Source: Ovis canadensis
Lineage: Eukaryota > Chordata > Mammalia > Artiodactyla > Bovidae
DNA length: 64,000 bases
Direction of reading: 5' to 3'
NCBI RefSeq assembly: GCF_042477335.2
Contig: NC_091246.1
Coordinates: 252,034,501-252,098,500, forward strand
Within the stretch, counting starts at the first letter, position 1. Each line of letters starts with the position of its first letter. Below the pieces are notes generated by a model, which was given only the letters and a program-made list of their open reading frames with translations, was not told the DNA's origin and searched no databases. The translations under genes were made by a program, and so were the position numbers. Below are positions 6,836 to 60,136 of the stretch, in pieces.

Positions 6836-7333
6836 TTTGTGCATATACAAGTGTAAGGGGGAAAGAGGTGGTGCTGCTTTGGTTCTGGAGAAAACCACTG
6901 CAGATCCGACTCCATGGGCGGAATTCCCAAGCCTGAATCCAGTGTGGGGGTGAGCAAGCTACGTATGCTGGGGGACACACAGCCTACGACCTCTGGGATC
7001 TCCCAGTTTAGTGGGGTGACCGGGTCACAGCCCCCCAGAAACTCTCAGGAGGGTGAAGAGCATGGCCGTCTCAGCAGTATATCATGGGGGGAGGTGGTCT
7101 TGACCAGTGAGTCATGTAACAAAGCTGGGAGGCACCCCCTGCACATGTCCTGTGTGCCCGATGAAGGCAGTCACGCTGGACCCCGCCTGGGATGGAAGAG
7201 CGTGTCTGTGATCTCCTTGAAAGACTCCCTCCATCAAGATCGTTGAATGTGAGCAGGACAGCAGGGGCCGGGGCAGAAGCTGGACCACCTGTTAGAGGAT
7301 CTAGGCTGGTCTGTCTGTATTTCTCCCCCACAG

Positions 7334-7343
7334 AACCCTCAGC
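7334..7343 (+). other. 5' UTR start of the first coding exon of the PLA2G2A-like gene (splice acceptor at 7333)
   Basis: A pyrimidine-rich tract ending in CCCCCACAG at 7333 lies just before the initiator ATG. This suggests that the coding exon begins at 7334 and that at least one non-coding 5' exon lies upstream. Non-coding first exons are usual in this gene. The upstream exon and promoter could not be placed. Confidence 0.5.
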
Positions 7344-10325
7344 ATGAAGACCCTCCTGCTGCTGGCAGTGATCATAGCCATCGGTAAGAGTTGAACCTGA
7401 CCTCTGGCCACAAGGGGCTCAGCACAGGGAGGGAGGCACCCTCTTCCCCCGGCTTCCCTTCCCACCGCATCTGGCCCTCTCTCAGAAGTGGGGGCAAGGG
7501 GGTGGCAGGGAGAGGCAGAGGGAGGCCACAGGGTCCCAGGCCCCGTCACTGGCTGCTGTCCTTCCAGGCCTGCTGCAGGGCCATGGAAGTTTGGCAGATT
7601 TCCAGAAAATGGTCAAGTTCACGACAGGAAAGGACCTTCTGACCACTTACAGCTTCTATGGTTGCCACTGTGGTGCGGGTAACAGAGGAACCCCCAAGGA
7701 CGCAACAGATCGGTGAGGCCACCCCCAGCCCTCCCTGCCCTCTGCCCACTTGTGGCCCCAGTGTGGGTGGGAGCTGAAGCCTCCTGCTTTAGTCCCATCA
7801 GCACAGAACCCAGGAAGTCCCGGCCTAAAAAGCAGCCAGCTTGTTGGAAGCTCTGCTGTAAACTATTCCAGTGTCCCAGAGCCAAGGGGCTGAGCCCACA
7901 GGGCACTGGGCTCCCTGGAGCTTCTGGGAGGCAGCCCCAATAGCTCCTTCTTGGCACAGGTGCTGCAGGGCACGTGACTGCTGCTACGAAAACCTAAGAA
8001 AACGCGGATGCCGCACCAGCTTCCAGAGCTACAACTTTATTTTCCAACGGGGCCAAATCGTTTGTGGTAAGAAAAGAGACCCACAACACCACCCAGCCTT
8101 GCCTGTTCATTTTACTGACTGTCCGCGGGGCCAGGCACTGCACTGGGTGTCCGAGCTAGAAAAAAGGGACCGTGTCCCTGTCGCAAGGAGTTCATAGGGG
8201 ACTGAGAAGAAAAGAAAATCAAAATCTAACATGACAGTCTCAGATGGGAAGTAAGAAAAAGGTCAGGGCTCTGAACACAGCCTGAGGGTCATGGAAGCCT
8301 GGAAGCTTCCTGAAAGTGGTGATCTCCAAGCTGAGTCTTCAAGGCTGAGAGGGGTCAGGGGAAGGAGCATTGAGAACATCCCTACAAGAGGATACATCAG
8401 GGACAAGGGGCCAGAGGGAACTGCAACAATTCTGTGCTGCTGAAGGAAAAGGTGAGGATGAGACAGGGTGGTGAGTGATGAAGCCGGAGAGACAGGAAGG
8501 GGCTAGGTCAAGTTTCCAGGCCGTATTGTATTTAGATTATGTCCTAAAGAATTAGGGAGCTCTTAACCAAAGGAGTGGTATAATAATACTTGAATGTCAC
8601 ACTTGCTCTGTCTGAGGATAGATGCACACAGATGAAAGTGGGGGGCCATTGTCATGATGCAGACGAGAGACAGGAAGCCCTTGAGCTTTAGCAATGGTGG
8701 GTCAGGATGCAAGCGGTGGAGAGTGCCATCGAGATGCATTTGAGATCGGATTGGTAGAGCTTCGTGGTGGATTGGTTATGGTGCCTGGGAGCTGCTGGGT
8801 TGGCTATACCATTGTGTGGATGGTTCTACCAAGGAGGGCCTGGTAGGAGAGGGCAGGAGGCATTCCATTTGGAGCGTGTTGAGTTTGGAAGCTTCCAGAA
8901 CACCCAGAGAGATGGGCAGAAGGCAGCTGGATGAAGGAACTGGCAGCTCAAGGGAAAATCTGGACACAGATGCAGGAGGCGGCTGCAGAGGGAGGAGGTA
9001 CCCACCCATCTGGTGTTTAAAGGCCCAGAAAGGAGACAGAGCGGGGACAGTCAGAGAAGGAAGGGAGGAGAAAAGAAGGCCGAGGGGTGGGCCAGGAGGA
9101 GAGGGTTAACAGCTGCAGGTTTCACAGAGGGGTCCTCCAGGATAAGGGCTGACCGGGCTCCTGGGGTTCAGAGGCAGAACGATCACTGAGGACCTCAGCG
9201 GGAGTTGCTCCCATGGATCTGTGAGGGCAAAGCCAGATTAGAGCGGGTTGGAAGGTGGGTGGGAAGTAAAGAGAGGTCGTGAGTGTAGACAAAGTTCTGG
9301 AGCAAGTTTGGCTGTGGAGGGGAGGAGAGAGATGGGTGGTGGCTGGAAGGAATTGCCTAGTGCCCCAGACCTACTGACTCATGAGTGAGATTTGGAAAAA
9401 CCATGGACTATTCCTCAACAGCCTGAGGTCTCTAAGATCAGAAATCATGTCTTCCCATCATGACCTGCCACAGGGCTCTGTGGCTTTCGCAGGCTCTGGA
9501 TGCCCACCTAACAGGTGCAGAGAGTGAGGAGGTCTGACTCCTGGAAGAGAGCTGGGAGAGGGCAGCGCCAAGGCGGGGCCGCTCCTCCGCTGTGGTGCCA
9601 GGGGTCCAGTCCTTCCCCAGCCTCTGTGCTGCCACGTTGGCAGTGTGATTCCAAGGCACAGTCAGGGCTCCGAGAGTTATGGGTCGCTCTACAGGAGAGG
9701 CTTTCCCTTTGCACATCTCTCTCTTTGAGAGGAAATTCATCCTTCCTGGAAGTGCCCCACAGACTTTCCCTTGGGGCTCACTGGTCAGGGCAAGAGCACG
9801 TGCTCCCCAGACACTAATCATAGCTAAGGAAGCAGGGATGACCATGGCTGGCTTTCACCCATCAAGACCCATTCCCAGAGCCCAGGGGCCAGGGGCTATG
9901 GACCTGAACACACCTTCTGGGGAGAAGAAAGAGACAGCGTCTAACAGCAAGGCTTTTCACAGCATCCCAGGGCATGACTGCTGGTACCCCATGAGACCGG
10001 GTGTGGGCTTCCTGAGGGCAGGAGTTCTGTCTCCCCATCAGTCAGAAATACCTGGACATCGGTGCTTCTTCCAGACTAGAAACTGGGAAAACAGGGACTG
10101 TGTCTTCTCCCCTAGAATTCACACAAGAATCCATAGAATTTTAACAAACCCCCATCCTACATTTAGTTTATTGTGATTTCAGGCGATCAGGACTACTGTA
10201 AGCGCCATCTGTGTCAATGTGATAAAAAAGCTGCCGATTGTTTCGATAAAAACCGGAGGACCTACAATAAAAAATTCCAATACTACAACAACCTTCTGTG
10301 CTTTGGGAGTGCCCCCAAGTGCTGA
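7344..10325 (+). CDS. PLA2G2A: PLA2G2A-like secreted group II phospholipase A2, catalytic His replaced by Arg
   Basis: Coding exons are 7344-7383, 7568-7712, 7960-8066 and 10183-10325, with GT/AG borders and phases 1, 2, 1; they total 435 bp and give 144 aa. Residues 1-20 are a hydrophobic signal peptide ([14 protein letters not shown]...), leaving a 124-aa mature protein, the usual IIA length. Group II features seen are 14 cysteines, the Ca loop [11 protein letters not shown] (residues 44-54), CCRARDCCY (63-71), Asp111 in CQCDKKA, and a Cys-ending C-terminal extension. Asp68 (calcium ligand) and Tyr71 are kept. Position 67, where the family has the catalytic His, is Arg, and residue 52 is Asn where Gly is usual. 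The mature chain is very basic (hand count of K/R minus D/E about +12), as expected for a heparin- and bacterial-surface-binding IIA enzyme. The family hydrolyses the sn-2 ester of phospholipids outside the cell. This copy probably cannot do so by the normal His/Asp mechanism, though binding roles could remain. The assignment to IIA rather than another group II paralogue rests on N-terminal and overall similarity and on position next to PLA2G2E. Confidence 0.9.
8067..10182 (+). other. Intron 3 of the PLA2G2A-like gene (2.1 kb)
   Basis: It starts GTAAGA and ends TGATTTCAG. No further PLA2 exon and no BovB or SINE copy was seen inside it. The part from about 8210 to 8760 reads like a very old, unclassified interspersed repeat. 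The rest is unique sequence. Confidence 0.6.
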
Positions 10326-10637: not shown

Positions 10638-10643
10638 AATAAA
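10638..10643 (+). promoter_or_regulatory. Polyadenylation signal AATAAA of the PLA2G2A-like gene
   Basis: AATAAA lies 313 bp after the stop codon. It is followed within about 25 bp by a GT-rich stretch (10662-10675) that fits a downstream element. The 3' UTR would be about 330 bp. An intact signal argues that the gene is, or was recently, expressed despite the altered active site. Confidence 0.75.
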
Positions 10644-56841: not shown

Positions 56842-59800
56842 ATGAAGCGGCCCCCTCTTCTGACCTTCCTATGCCTCCTGGGTAAGTCACCTTCATGCCT
56901 GCGCTCCTGCTCTGCCCCAGCTGGGAACACTCCGGGGGGCTCCTGAGCCAGTCCCCAGGGAGGGTGTCATCGGTCACCCTGAGACCAGCCCTGGCCCAGG
57001 AAGAACTGGCCAGTGGAAAGGGGGCACGGCTGCAGCCTGGACGGCCTGGGGGGACAGAGGGGAGGAAGCGGCAGGGGCCCCCCAACAGCTGCTGCTGCCC
57101 GAGCTCCACCGCCCACCTGAGTGTCCCTTTCTGCCTTTAACCTGCCAGGTGGGCGGGCCCCCACTGCTGCAGCAGCAGGACCTGGAGGAACTCGGGGAAG
57201 TCCGGGTGGTCAGGAAGTTTATCCAGCGACATCTGATGGGACTCGATGGGGACAGAGTGCTCCTGGGGGCGGGGGTGGGGGCTGACGCCAGGGGAAAGGA
57301 TCAGGAAACCGGGATGGGAGCCTAGAGGATGAGTGAGGGGGTGGTTTGGAAGGAGAGCGGGGTGGGAGGTCAGGTGGGGACACGACGCAGGTGAGGACCA
57401 GGAGACCCAGGTGCAGCAGCGTCACAGGGACGTCACTACTGACTGGCGCTGGCACTCAGTCGCTCAGTCTTTGCGACCCCGTGGACCGCAGCGCGCCAGG
57501 CCTCCCTGTCCATCACCAACTCCCGGAGCTCACTCACACTCATGTCCGTTGAGTGTGTGATGCCGCCCACCCATCTCTGTCGTCTGTCGTATCACCCATT
57601 AGCACTGTTACCGTCGGGAGTGAGGTGCTCGGGGCGGTGGAGGCTCCCGAGGCGATCCGAGAGGCGCCTGCGCTCAGATGTGGGGGCTGCAGCTGGCCGC
57701 AGAGAGTGGGGCCCTGAGGGAGCTGATGCCCTCCCGCTCCGTCCCTGCAGTGGCCCTGGCTGGCGGGAACCTGGTCCAGTTCGGGGTGATGATCGAGAGG
57801 ACGACGGGGAAGCCCGCGCTGCAGTACAATGACTACGGCTGCTACTGCGGGGTCGGCGGCGCCCGCTGGCCGGTGGACGGGACAGACTGGTGAGCAGGCA
57901 GCCCAGCCGGGGTCCTGCCTGGAGGGTGGAGGCGCCAGGGGAGCATCCTGCGGGGAGCTGGGGGTACCTAGGAAGCTGAGGCGTGACCACCACACTTGCG
58001 CGCCCCTTTGGGCCCTGAGCCCCCCCAAGCGGCCCCCCGTCCAGCCCAGCTGGCCCCTTCAGGCCGACCTCGATCTTCACAGGTGCTGCCACGCCCACGA
58101 CTGCTGCTACGGGCGCCTGGAGAAGCTTGGCTGCGAACCCAAGATGGAAAGGTACCTCTTCTCCGCCACCAGGCACAGCATCTTCTGTGGTGAGTGAGCG
58201 GACCTGGGGGTCCCCCAGGCCCCTGGAGAGGGAAGGGGTCAGCCAGGAACCCCTCTCCTGATGGAGACCCTTGAGCCTGGTCACCTGGGCGGGAGAGGCG
58301 GGTCTTCCATCATCACAGCGCTAGGGAGAGGCGTGTCCCTGCTCCCACAGCACTCGGTCTGGAGAGCCCGGGACCCATCAGCTCCTGCCCTGGGACCCCA
58401 GGAACAAGCCCCACATTCAGAGGCGCCCCCCCCCCTCCCCCGCCGCCAGCTTCAGCCTCTGAGGGGAGGAGCAAAGGGCCAGCACTGAGCCCCACCCAGA
58501 GAAGCTGCGCCCAGACAGCCCTCCCCAGGGCCTGGGCAGCTGCTAGGGACAGGTCCCCAGACCCAGAGGCTGGAGCTCGGACGCAGGGCCACAGACCCCG
58601 CTCCCAAAGGCTGACCCACCGCACCAGCGCGCCTCCTTGCCAGACCCCATGCCCACTTGGACCAGTTAGCCTTCTCCTCTGCTCCCTGGCCTGGGGAAAC
58701 AGCTGGACCCGAATCAGAGTGTCAAGGGCTCCACGCAGCCCAGCCCCATGGAGGGAACTCATATCGGAGAACCAAACCTCCTTCTTCCTGCAGCAAAGCC
58801 AGGAGTAGCCTGGAAGGCAGAGGGCAGGCCCGGAGCTGGGGGCACACAGCACAGGGGGCTGGGAGGGCCAGCGAGGACTCAGATCTCTGGGGTCTGTCCT
58901 GGGGGCGGGGCGGGACCAGAAGCAGAGCTGCGGGAGGCAGGCGGGGCTCCCAGTTTCCTGTTCCCACCGCAATCCACTCAGCAAAGAGGCTTTGGTAGGT
59001 AATGAGCTCCCAGTCACAGGGAGCTCATGCAAGGCTGGAAGCCACCTGTTAGGGACAGCGCTGAGAGGGTGAGTGAAGGGAGGGGTCAGGTGAATGGGAC
59101 ACAGGTTCGGGGAGCCCCCTCCCGCCGTGTGGCTCTGGGCAAGCGATAGAGCCCCTCAAAAGCTCCTATTTCTTCATCTGTAAAAGGGAGACCTAACCTC
59201 GCACTTGCCAGCTTAGCCCAGCTCCTGGGAGCTGACATAGCTGTTAAGCCCCTGCCAAATCTGAGTTCTGCTGAAAGAGCAGGTGAGAGGAGAACCTGGA
59301 TGGGAAATGAGGCTGACCTTCGCGAGAGATCCTGAGGAAGCCGGATATGTCTGAGCTGGGGGACGTCTTCGTGGGGACAAAAAGGAACCAGAGCCCCTGA
59401 GGGCAGACAGAGGTGGTAGAGGCAAGAGGAGGCTTTGGGGCCCCTGGAGTCCACAGAGCTGATGTCCGCGCCACTCCCCAGGCTGGGTGTGGGCGCACGT
59501 GGAGGGGGCGCCCTGAGATACATGCTGGGAAAGCGGGCTGCGTCCCCACTGAGGGCGGCAGGCGCAGGCCCCAGCTCCAGGCCCTCTGGGCACACCCAGG
59601 TCACCCGGGATCGGGCTGCTGCCGTTCAGTAGTTTTCCTCTCTGGTTCACGGCTGCCGGTACCATACGCAGTCCATTACGTGGGAGAAGGGTCGCCCAGA
59701 AACACAGCCGTCCCAGGGCTGGGACAGGTGGTCTCCCCGTGCGGAAGGGGCTCAGGGCAGTGGAGTGGGTTTGGGAAAGGAAGGAGCAGCAAAGATGAAT

Positions 59801-60136
59801 CTCCAGGCTTCTAGCGTCCCTGGCCCCAGAAGGACCTCCGCACCCTGCCCGTTCCCTCACCCAACCCTGGAGCATCCCCCCGGGGAGCGTGGGCTTCCAG
59901 GTGGAGAATGTGGACCCCAGCGCGCTCCCCTGCACGTGGCTGGGAGTGGCGGGCCCAAAGTTCCCGGGCCCTGACTGCCCACGTCCCATCCAGCCGGCAG
60001 AACCAGCTGCCAGCGACGGACCTGCGAGTGTGACAAGAAGGCTGCGCTCTGCTTTCGCCGCAACCTGGGCACCTACGACCGCAAATACGCCCATTACCCC
60101 AACAAGCTGTGCACCGGGCCCACCCCCCCCTGCTAA
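56842..60136 (+). CDS. PLA2G2E: PLA2G2E, secreted group IIE phospholipase A2
   Basis: Coding exons are 56842-56881, 57751-57889, 58083-58189 and 59994-60136, all with GT/AG borders and phases 1, 2, 1; they total 429 bp and give 142 aa. The signal peptide is residues 1-19 and the mature chain starts [10 protein letters not shown]. The Ca loop is YGCYCGVGG (42-50) and the catalytic motif is [10 protein letters not shown] (60-69), with His65 and Asp66 present. Asp109 lies in CECDKKA, and the C-terminus ends in Pro-Pro-Cys. There are 14 cysteines, as in group II enzymes. The KLGCEPK and YPNKLCTGP stretches are diagnostic of IIE over IIA, IID and IIF. The family is calcium dependent, secreted, and hydrolyses sn-2 acyl chains of phospholipids. 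Nothing looks broken, so the gene is predicted functional. The start ATG is the only one in frame with the signal peptide. Confidence 0.96.
57448..57600 (-). mobile_element. BovB 3'-end fragment in PLA2G2E intron 1
   Basis: A reverse-orientation BovB tail (CACTCAGTCGCTCAGT, then CGCCAGGCCTCCCTGTCCAT) sits in the 869-bp first intron, 150 bp before exon 2. It is a 5'-truncated copy and does not touch the splice sites. Confidence 0.75.
59120..59240 (-). mobile_element. MIR SINE in PLA2G2E intron 3
   Basis: GTGTGGCTCTGGGCAAGCGA then TATTTCTTCATCTGTAAAAG fits the MIR core (antisense). It sits in the 1.8-kb third intron. Confidence 0.6.

Follow-up and report, generated by a model that had tools for sequence, protein, structure and literature searches.

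An intact PLA2G2A-type gene in a tandem array of Ovis canadensis encodes arginine in place of the catalytic histidine

In secreted phospholipases A2 (sPLA2s) the attacking water is activated by His48 with the help of Asp99 and Tyr52, as described in PMC10893444. This raises the question of what a gene of this family in Ovis canadensis can encode when the codon for His48 specifies arginine and the reading frame is intact. The gene lies in a window (the whole stretch of DNA analysed) of 64,000 nucleotides, C2:252034501-252098500. It is a complete group IIA sPLA2 gene of four exons at 7344-10325 on the + strand, with GT/AG at all junctions. Exon 1 (coding; 7344..7383, +; donor GT) contains the start codon and the bulk of the signal peptide, and an AG acceptor is present at 7332-7333 (+), 10 nt upstream of the ATG. 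Exon 2 (7568..7712, +) encodes the end of the signal peptide, the N-terminal helix and the calcium loop, exon 3 (7960..8066, +) the active-site helix CCRARDCCY, and exon 4 (10183..10325, +) Asp111 (canonical Asp99), the C-terminal half and the stop codon. An AATAAA poly(A) signal is found at 10638..10643 (+). The open reading frame comprises 144 amino acids with a single terminal stop, and the mature protein has 124 residues, 14 cysteines and a pI of 9.17. The translation matched PF00068 with 118.7 bits (cut-off 32.1), and its best solved relatives are chains named 'phospholipase A2, membrane associated', including 1N29. The PF00068 match, the 14 cysteines, the four coding exons and synteny with PLA2G2E assign the gene to group IIA. 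Of this PLA2G2E neighbour, coding exons 2-4 were placed by eye at 57751-57889, 58083-58189 and 59994-60136 (57751..60136, +), while exon 1 was not located; the His-Asp pair is kept, and the translation differs from a goat entry at 1 of 129 aligned residues. An assignment of this neighbour at 57.7 kb to PLA2G5 was considered and rejected. Within the window, CC-x-x-[H/R]-D-CC is matched exactly at two sites, one in the IIA-type gene (hereafter the window copy) and one in PLA2G2E at 58084.

Reading of the codons showed CGT at 7973..7975 (+), which puts arginine at residue 67 (canonical 48), the site of the catalytic histidine. The next codon, GAC at 7976..7978 (+), retains Asp68 (canonical Asp49, a calcium ligand). 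Tyr71 (canonical 52) and Asp111 are also present in the translation. The first-pass annotation had described just this, a CCRARDCC motif in an otherwise intact PLA2G2A-type gene for a basic protein, and frame, splice sites, cysteines, active-site neighbours, poly(A) signal and pI all bear it out. Its claim of a calcium loop holds for Gly30 and Gly32, but it overlooked that Gly33 is replaced: AAC at 7681..7683 (+) encodes Asn52 (canonical 33), a site where Gly is near-invariant (98% of rows in a family set of 118). Compared with catalytic group IIA enzymes (PLA2G2A; human, PDB 1N29), the window copy has the PLA2G2E neighbour, the 14 cysteines, the mature length of 124 residues and the PF00068 domain in common, and differs in His48 to Arg and Gly33 to Asn. 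Thus, with the His48-Asp99 dyad broken (Arg48, with Asp49 and Asp99 kept) and Asn33 in the Gly30/32/33 loop, it stands outside the catalytic sPLA2s. It also stands outside the Lys49-type proteins, having kept Asp49 and lost His48. No frameshift, stop or splice loss marks it as a pseudogene, in contrast to two decayed copies nearby (L011 and L012, see below). Its intact frame combined with a lost catalytic residue is one of the traits expected of a natural non-catalytic homologue retained for another function.

The window copy is the member nearest PLA2G2E of an array in which at least four further IIA-type copies lie upstream on the same strand, as found by a genome search that scores best candidates only. 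The copy of lineage 3 (L009) is intact, with CCWEHDCC, the loop CGLGGRG and the full set of catalytic residues. That of lineage 2 (L010:3256-6753, corresponding to C2:252014256-252017753 of genome G000, on the same strand as the window copy) has an intact frame, reads CCRAHECC with Glu49, and carries Gly32 to Arg in its loop, CGMRGRG. Glu49 abolishes PLA2 activity. L011 (C2 ~252.027 Mb) is decayed with stops, and L012 (C2 ~252.002 Mb) is decayed with CCAEQDCC, that is, Gln48. The disrupted calcium loop of L012 resembles that of a Bos protein, P0129, with Asn48. The full catalytic set is therefore present in one of three intact array frames, L009 alone, and decay has affected two of the five members found. 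Outside the array, His48-Asp49 was kept in 10 of 11 exon 3s examined (PLA2G2E of the window, G5, G10, G1B, four 2D-like copies and two others on C2), the single exception being L023, a G5-like copy on C28 that has lost Asp49. Leaving out L023 and the decayed L011 and L012, the catalytic pair is intact in 1 of 3 copies in the array versus 10 of 10 outside (Fisher P=0.04). L023 (C28:123646700-123647300) reads CCWKHGHCY and is perhaps a retrocopy. An expansion of IID-like genes in cattle was reportedly described by Golik in 2006, as cited in PMC3229636; the four closely similar PLA2G2D-like copies at C2:251817028, 251846036, 251878262 and 251907329 fit such an expansion. Expansion of the PLA2G2 cluster is also discussed in PMC7767849.

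At codon 48, the other array copies have CAT (L009, L010 and L011) or CAG (L012). Acquisition of Arg48 by conversion from another of the copies found was ruled out, as CGT occurs in 0 of 4, and a point mutation of CAT is the apparent origin of Arg48. Conversion has nevertheless left its mark on other parts of the gene. Two-state segmentation, with identity levels set by us, delimited tracts of high identity to L010 at 7023..7593 (+; upstream region, exon 1, intron 1 and the start of exon 2; 95.9%), at 7683..7725 (+; the end of exon 2 with its donor; 100%) and in intron 3 at 8999..10088 (+), where 8999-9392 and 9408-10088 are each 97.5% identical and 9393-9407 are dissimilar. The intron 3 tract includes an identical run of 185 nt (window 9904-10088, L010 from 6335). 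Outside the tracts, identity to L010 is ~70-78%, with 72% in exon 3 and 71% in exon 4. We read this as recent interlocus gene conversion that would have spread the promoter/upstream region, exon 1 and a large part of intron 3, leaving exons 3-4 distinct. As a consequence, RNA data must be assigned to the individual copies by exons 3-4. In another animal, exon 2 of P0055, a protein from an ENA contig, combines stretches that read as lineage 1 with others that read as lineage 2, a pattern that fits gene conversion there as well.

The first-pass annotation had proposed a check of codon 48 in other ruminants. His48 is present in 4 of 4 full-length lineage-1 orthologues (Odocoileus, Dama, Bos javanicus and Bubalus; cluster representatives), and among these sequences Arg48 is confined to the window copy. 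In the tree, the window copy falls inside the lineage-1 clade (support 100/99), within the artiodactyl IIA set (98/96). Since the four orthologues of other ruminants keep His48, the sequences place Arg48 as new on the caprine (Ovis) branch. Position 33 is Ser or His in the same four orthologues and Asn in the window copy, with Gly in 0 of 5; loss of Gly33 is thus probably older than Arg48, predating the split of bovids and deer. A musk deer protein (Moschus P0007, a single predicted sequence) has the same His48Arg, with CCRARDCC in an intact frame. P0007 sits in the lineage-2 clade (100/99), another paralogue clade, and by this placement its Arg48 is independent of that in the window copy. The Glu49 neighbour, the conversion mosaic and this second Arg48 all go beyond the first-pass annotation. 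The lineage-2 protein of Ovibos, P0012, shares Glu49 with sheep L010, and both frames are intact; the frame of the sister copy thus seems to have survived a speciation since the Glu49 change. A full-length lineage-1 protein of sheep or goat was absent from 58 protein matches, the only near-identical match being P0006, a fused Ovis model in which exons 1-2 are the same as in the window copy and exon 3 is skipped. Likewise, DNA patterns of lineage-1 exon 3 had no match in the collections of viral contigs and genome contigs.

Loss of the catalytic pair recurs among relatives. We collected 132 proteins (one relative listing consisted of the best 120 of 295 proteins; clustering was at 90% identity). 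Position 48 was covered in 126 of them, and the six without residue 48 were dropped before counting, as was P0057, whose apparent loss is an artefact of an exon-3 stretch that is not homologous. His48 or Asp49 was lost in 8 of the 125 surveyed relatives among the proteins listed, a set that mixes paralogues and includes a few non-IIA proteins: P0007 (R48), P0012 (E49), P0041 (Q48/E49), P0059 (H49), P0068 (L48), P0112 (S49), P0123 (Q48) and P0129 (N48). As a control, PLA2G2E was covered at this site in 76 of 78 proteins, and both residues were kept in all 76. Ignoring relatedness, the difference (8/125 versus 0/76) gives a Fisher P of 0.026 for loss of His48 or Asp49 and 0.16 for His48 alone. 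At 26 other conserved sites, 9 of 10 lost-residue copies (the window copy and L010 included) have 0-1 departures, compared to 0.35 on average across the 106 intact reference rows. P0129 is decaying, with 7 departures, and P0112 has lost one cysteine besides carrying S49. Gly30 of the calcium loop is replaced in PLA2G2A-type proteins of bat, hedgehog and glider (P0099 W, P0104 W, P0107 H, P0112 I, P0114 S and P0120 D).

The explanation that we find the most probable, with reasonable though incomplete confidence, is that the window copy is a caprine Arg48 member of a ruminant tandem array whose product is folded but non-hydrolytic and acts, if at all, by binding. Its main competitor, clearly less probable but still to be taken seriously, is an early-stage pseudogene. 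Under this reading a redundant member of the tandem array has lost catalysis, is drifting, is perhaps unexpressed, and will follow L011 and L012 in a process of birth and death. The two decayed members of the array fit this course, as does the lack of a full-length caprine lineage-1 protein among the 58 matches. Private changes in the mature protein also agree with it. Measured against a conservation set of 118 of the 132 rows (four lineage-1, nine fragmentary or odd and one low-scoring row left out), 2 of 12 such changes fall at sites conserved at ≥95%, where a simple mutation model expects 2.4 (P=0.55), so that conserved sites are struck at the neutral rate; one of the two (position 52 of the translation) is already non-Gly in relatives. 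Counting clean private changes only, there are 9 on the window branch versus 4 on the bovine branch (P=0.17), and the window branch is not slower.

Against drift along the whole branch stands the state of the gene itself. If the entire branch had been neutral, the absence of any stop, indel, splice loss or cysteine loss would have a probability of ~0.01-0.05, depending on the indel rate, for which ratios of 0.05-0.14 per substitution were assumed. An intact frame is unremarkable if the loss was recent, its probability being 0.18-0.34 if about a third of the branch was neutral (5 missense changes). The paralogues have overall dN/dS values of 0.47-0.60, mostly reflecting older history. Between lineages 1 and 2, dN/dS is 0.83 in exons 1-2, where dS is lowered by gene conversion, a value in line with decay, and 0.44 in exons 3-4, which speaks against it but averages a long, mostly catalytic history. 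The intact frames with Glu49 in both sheep L010 and Ovibos P0012 likewise count against rapid decay after catalytic loss. We conclude from these comparisons that constraint would have acted for part of the caprine branch. The statement of the first-pass annotation that this is 'not simple decay' is thus supported in part, in so far as a wholly neutral branch is improbable, but not for a shorter neutral period, given the rate of private changes and the decayed neighbours. As to the cause, we lean slightly towards a relaxation of constraint within a redundant array, rather than towards a binding role favoured by active selection.

That Arg48 stems from a mistake in sequencing or assembly, or from a rare allele of the sequenced animal, is improbable. 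The residue has been seen in one assembly, and the CpG within CGT would make reversion to CAT a fast transition (a factor of 10 was assumed). However, the assembly consists of large contigs (C2 255.66 Mb; 42 contigs in all), and no other array copy found could have supplied CGT. Moreover, a 221-bp piece holding exon 3 matches the 2.97-Gb genome at 100% in one place only, and the second best of 4 places is 75% identical, which makes a collapsed duplicate or mis-joining at the window copy unlikely.

Arginine is, on general chemical grounds, not expected to serve as a general base at normal pH. Engineered human IIA enzymes are left with <0.5% (His48Asn) or 1-4% (His48Gln) of the activity of the wild type; the crystal structure of His48Gln can be superimposed on that of the wild type, and several signalling effects persist in H48Q (PMC7583969). 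In viper enzymes, the loop is said to need Gly32 and Gly33 for its catalytic conformation, and both are less conserved in PLA2-like proteins (PMC10893444). Because both H48 mutants are nearly inactive, the fold persists in H48Q and the loop of viper enzymes needs its two glycines, the Arg48/Asn33 protein should be catalytically dead yet foldable; the loss of catalysis asserted by the first-pass annotation is very probable in light of the human mutants. That useful catalysis persists through an alternative mechanism is highly improbable, despite the retention of Asp49, Tyr52 and Asp99 and a small positive monolayer signal of unproven origin from the vipoxin Q48 subunit (PMC13414281), given the base chemistry, the nearly dead H48N and H48Q and the additional loss of Gly33.

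Under the favoured explanation of a folded, non-hydrolytic protein, a CAT-to-CGT transition on the caprine (Ovis) branch would have put arginine at position 48. By then, and probably since before the divergence of bovids and deer, the calcium loop of this copy would already have been without Gly33. The protein would still be processed, form seven disulfides, fold and be strongly cationic, but hydrolysis would be lost, since the residue that serves as general base for the attacking water is missing. Any action would then proceed via binding, to heparan sulphate, anionic membranes, an integrin or a receptor, or by competition or pairing with the active lineage-3 enzyme. Binding to heparan sulphate and integrin is described as catalysis-independent (PMC7583969), and H48Q PLA2G10 still acts in a PLA2R1-dependent manner (PMC9320362).

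Natural non-catalytic PLA2s lend support to the likeness drawn by the first-pass annotation. In the acidic subunit of vipoxin (Q48), His48 is replaced, the scaffold and hydrophobic channel are kept, and the subunit works with an active paralogue (PMC13414281). Vipoxin differs in having Gln rather than Arg and in being a snake venom protein and a known heterodimer. Lys49 and other PLA2-like venom proteins have a group II scaffold without catalysis, often with changes at loop residues 32/33 (PMC10893444). The Lys49 type has Asp49 replaced and His48/Asp99 kept; the window copy is the reverse. PLA2G12B belongs to a different sPLA2 group. This sPLA2 relative is catalytically inactive and contributes to lipoprotein expansion by non-enzymatic means (PMC10920679). 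Among the top papers listed by keyword searches of the open-licence literature, none was seen to describe a natural loss of His48 or Asp49 in PLA2G2A of ruminants.

What would such a copy mean for the array? A tentative and rather speculative view, to which we give a low probability, is that the ruminant PLA2G2A array is convergent with a venom-like mixture. One active enzyme would stand beside two scaffold-preserving dead homologues (R48 and E49), with promoter and intron shared by recent conversion and the catalytic exons distinct, and the dead copies would persist because they bind partners, act as decoys or serve as ligands of receptors. The case for roles of sPLA2-IIA that do not need catalysis has been built largely on engineered His48 mutants (PMC7583969), and an array in which copies with His48 or Asp49 naturally replaced accompany an active one constitutes a natural experiment on such roles. 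The recurrent losses among relatives and their absence in PLA2G2E suggest that some PLA2G2A copies can do without catalysis, or else that copies are expendable owing to redundancy. Expression data for sheep 'PLA2G2A', such as the lymph-node network entry in PMC4433221, may concern a non-enzyme. The gene family seems to lose its chemistry while keeping its shape, the window copy carrying R48 and a neighbouring copy being changed at the adjacent residue.
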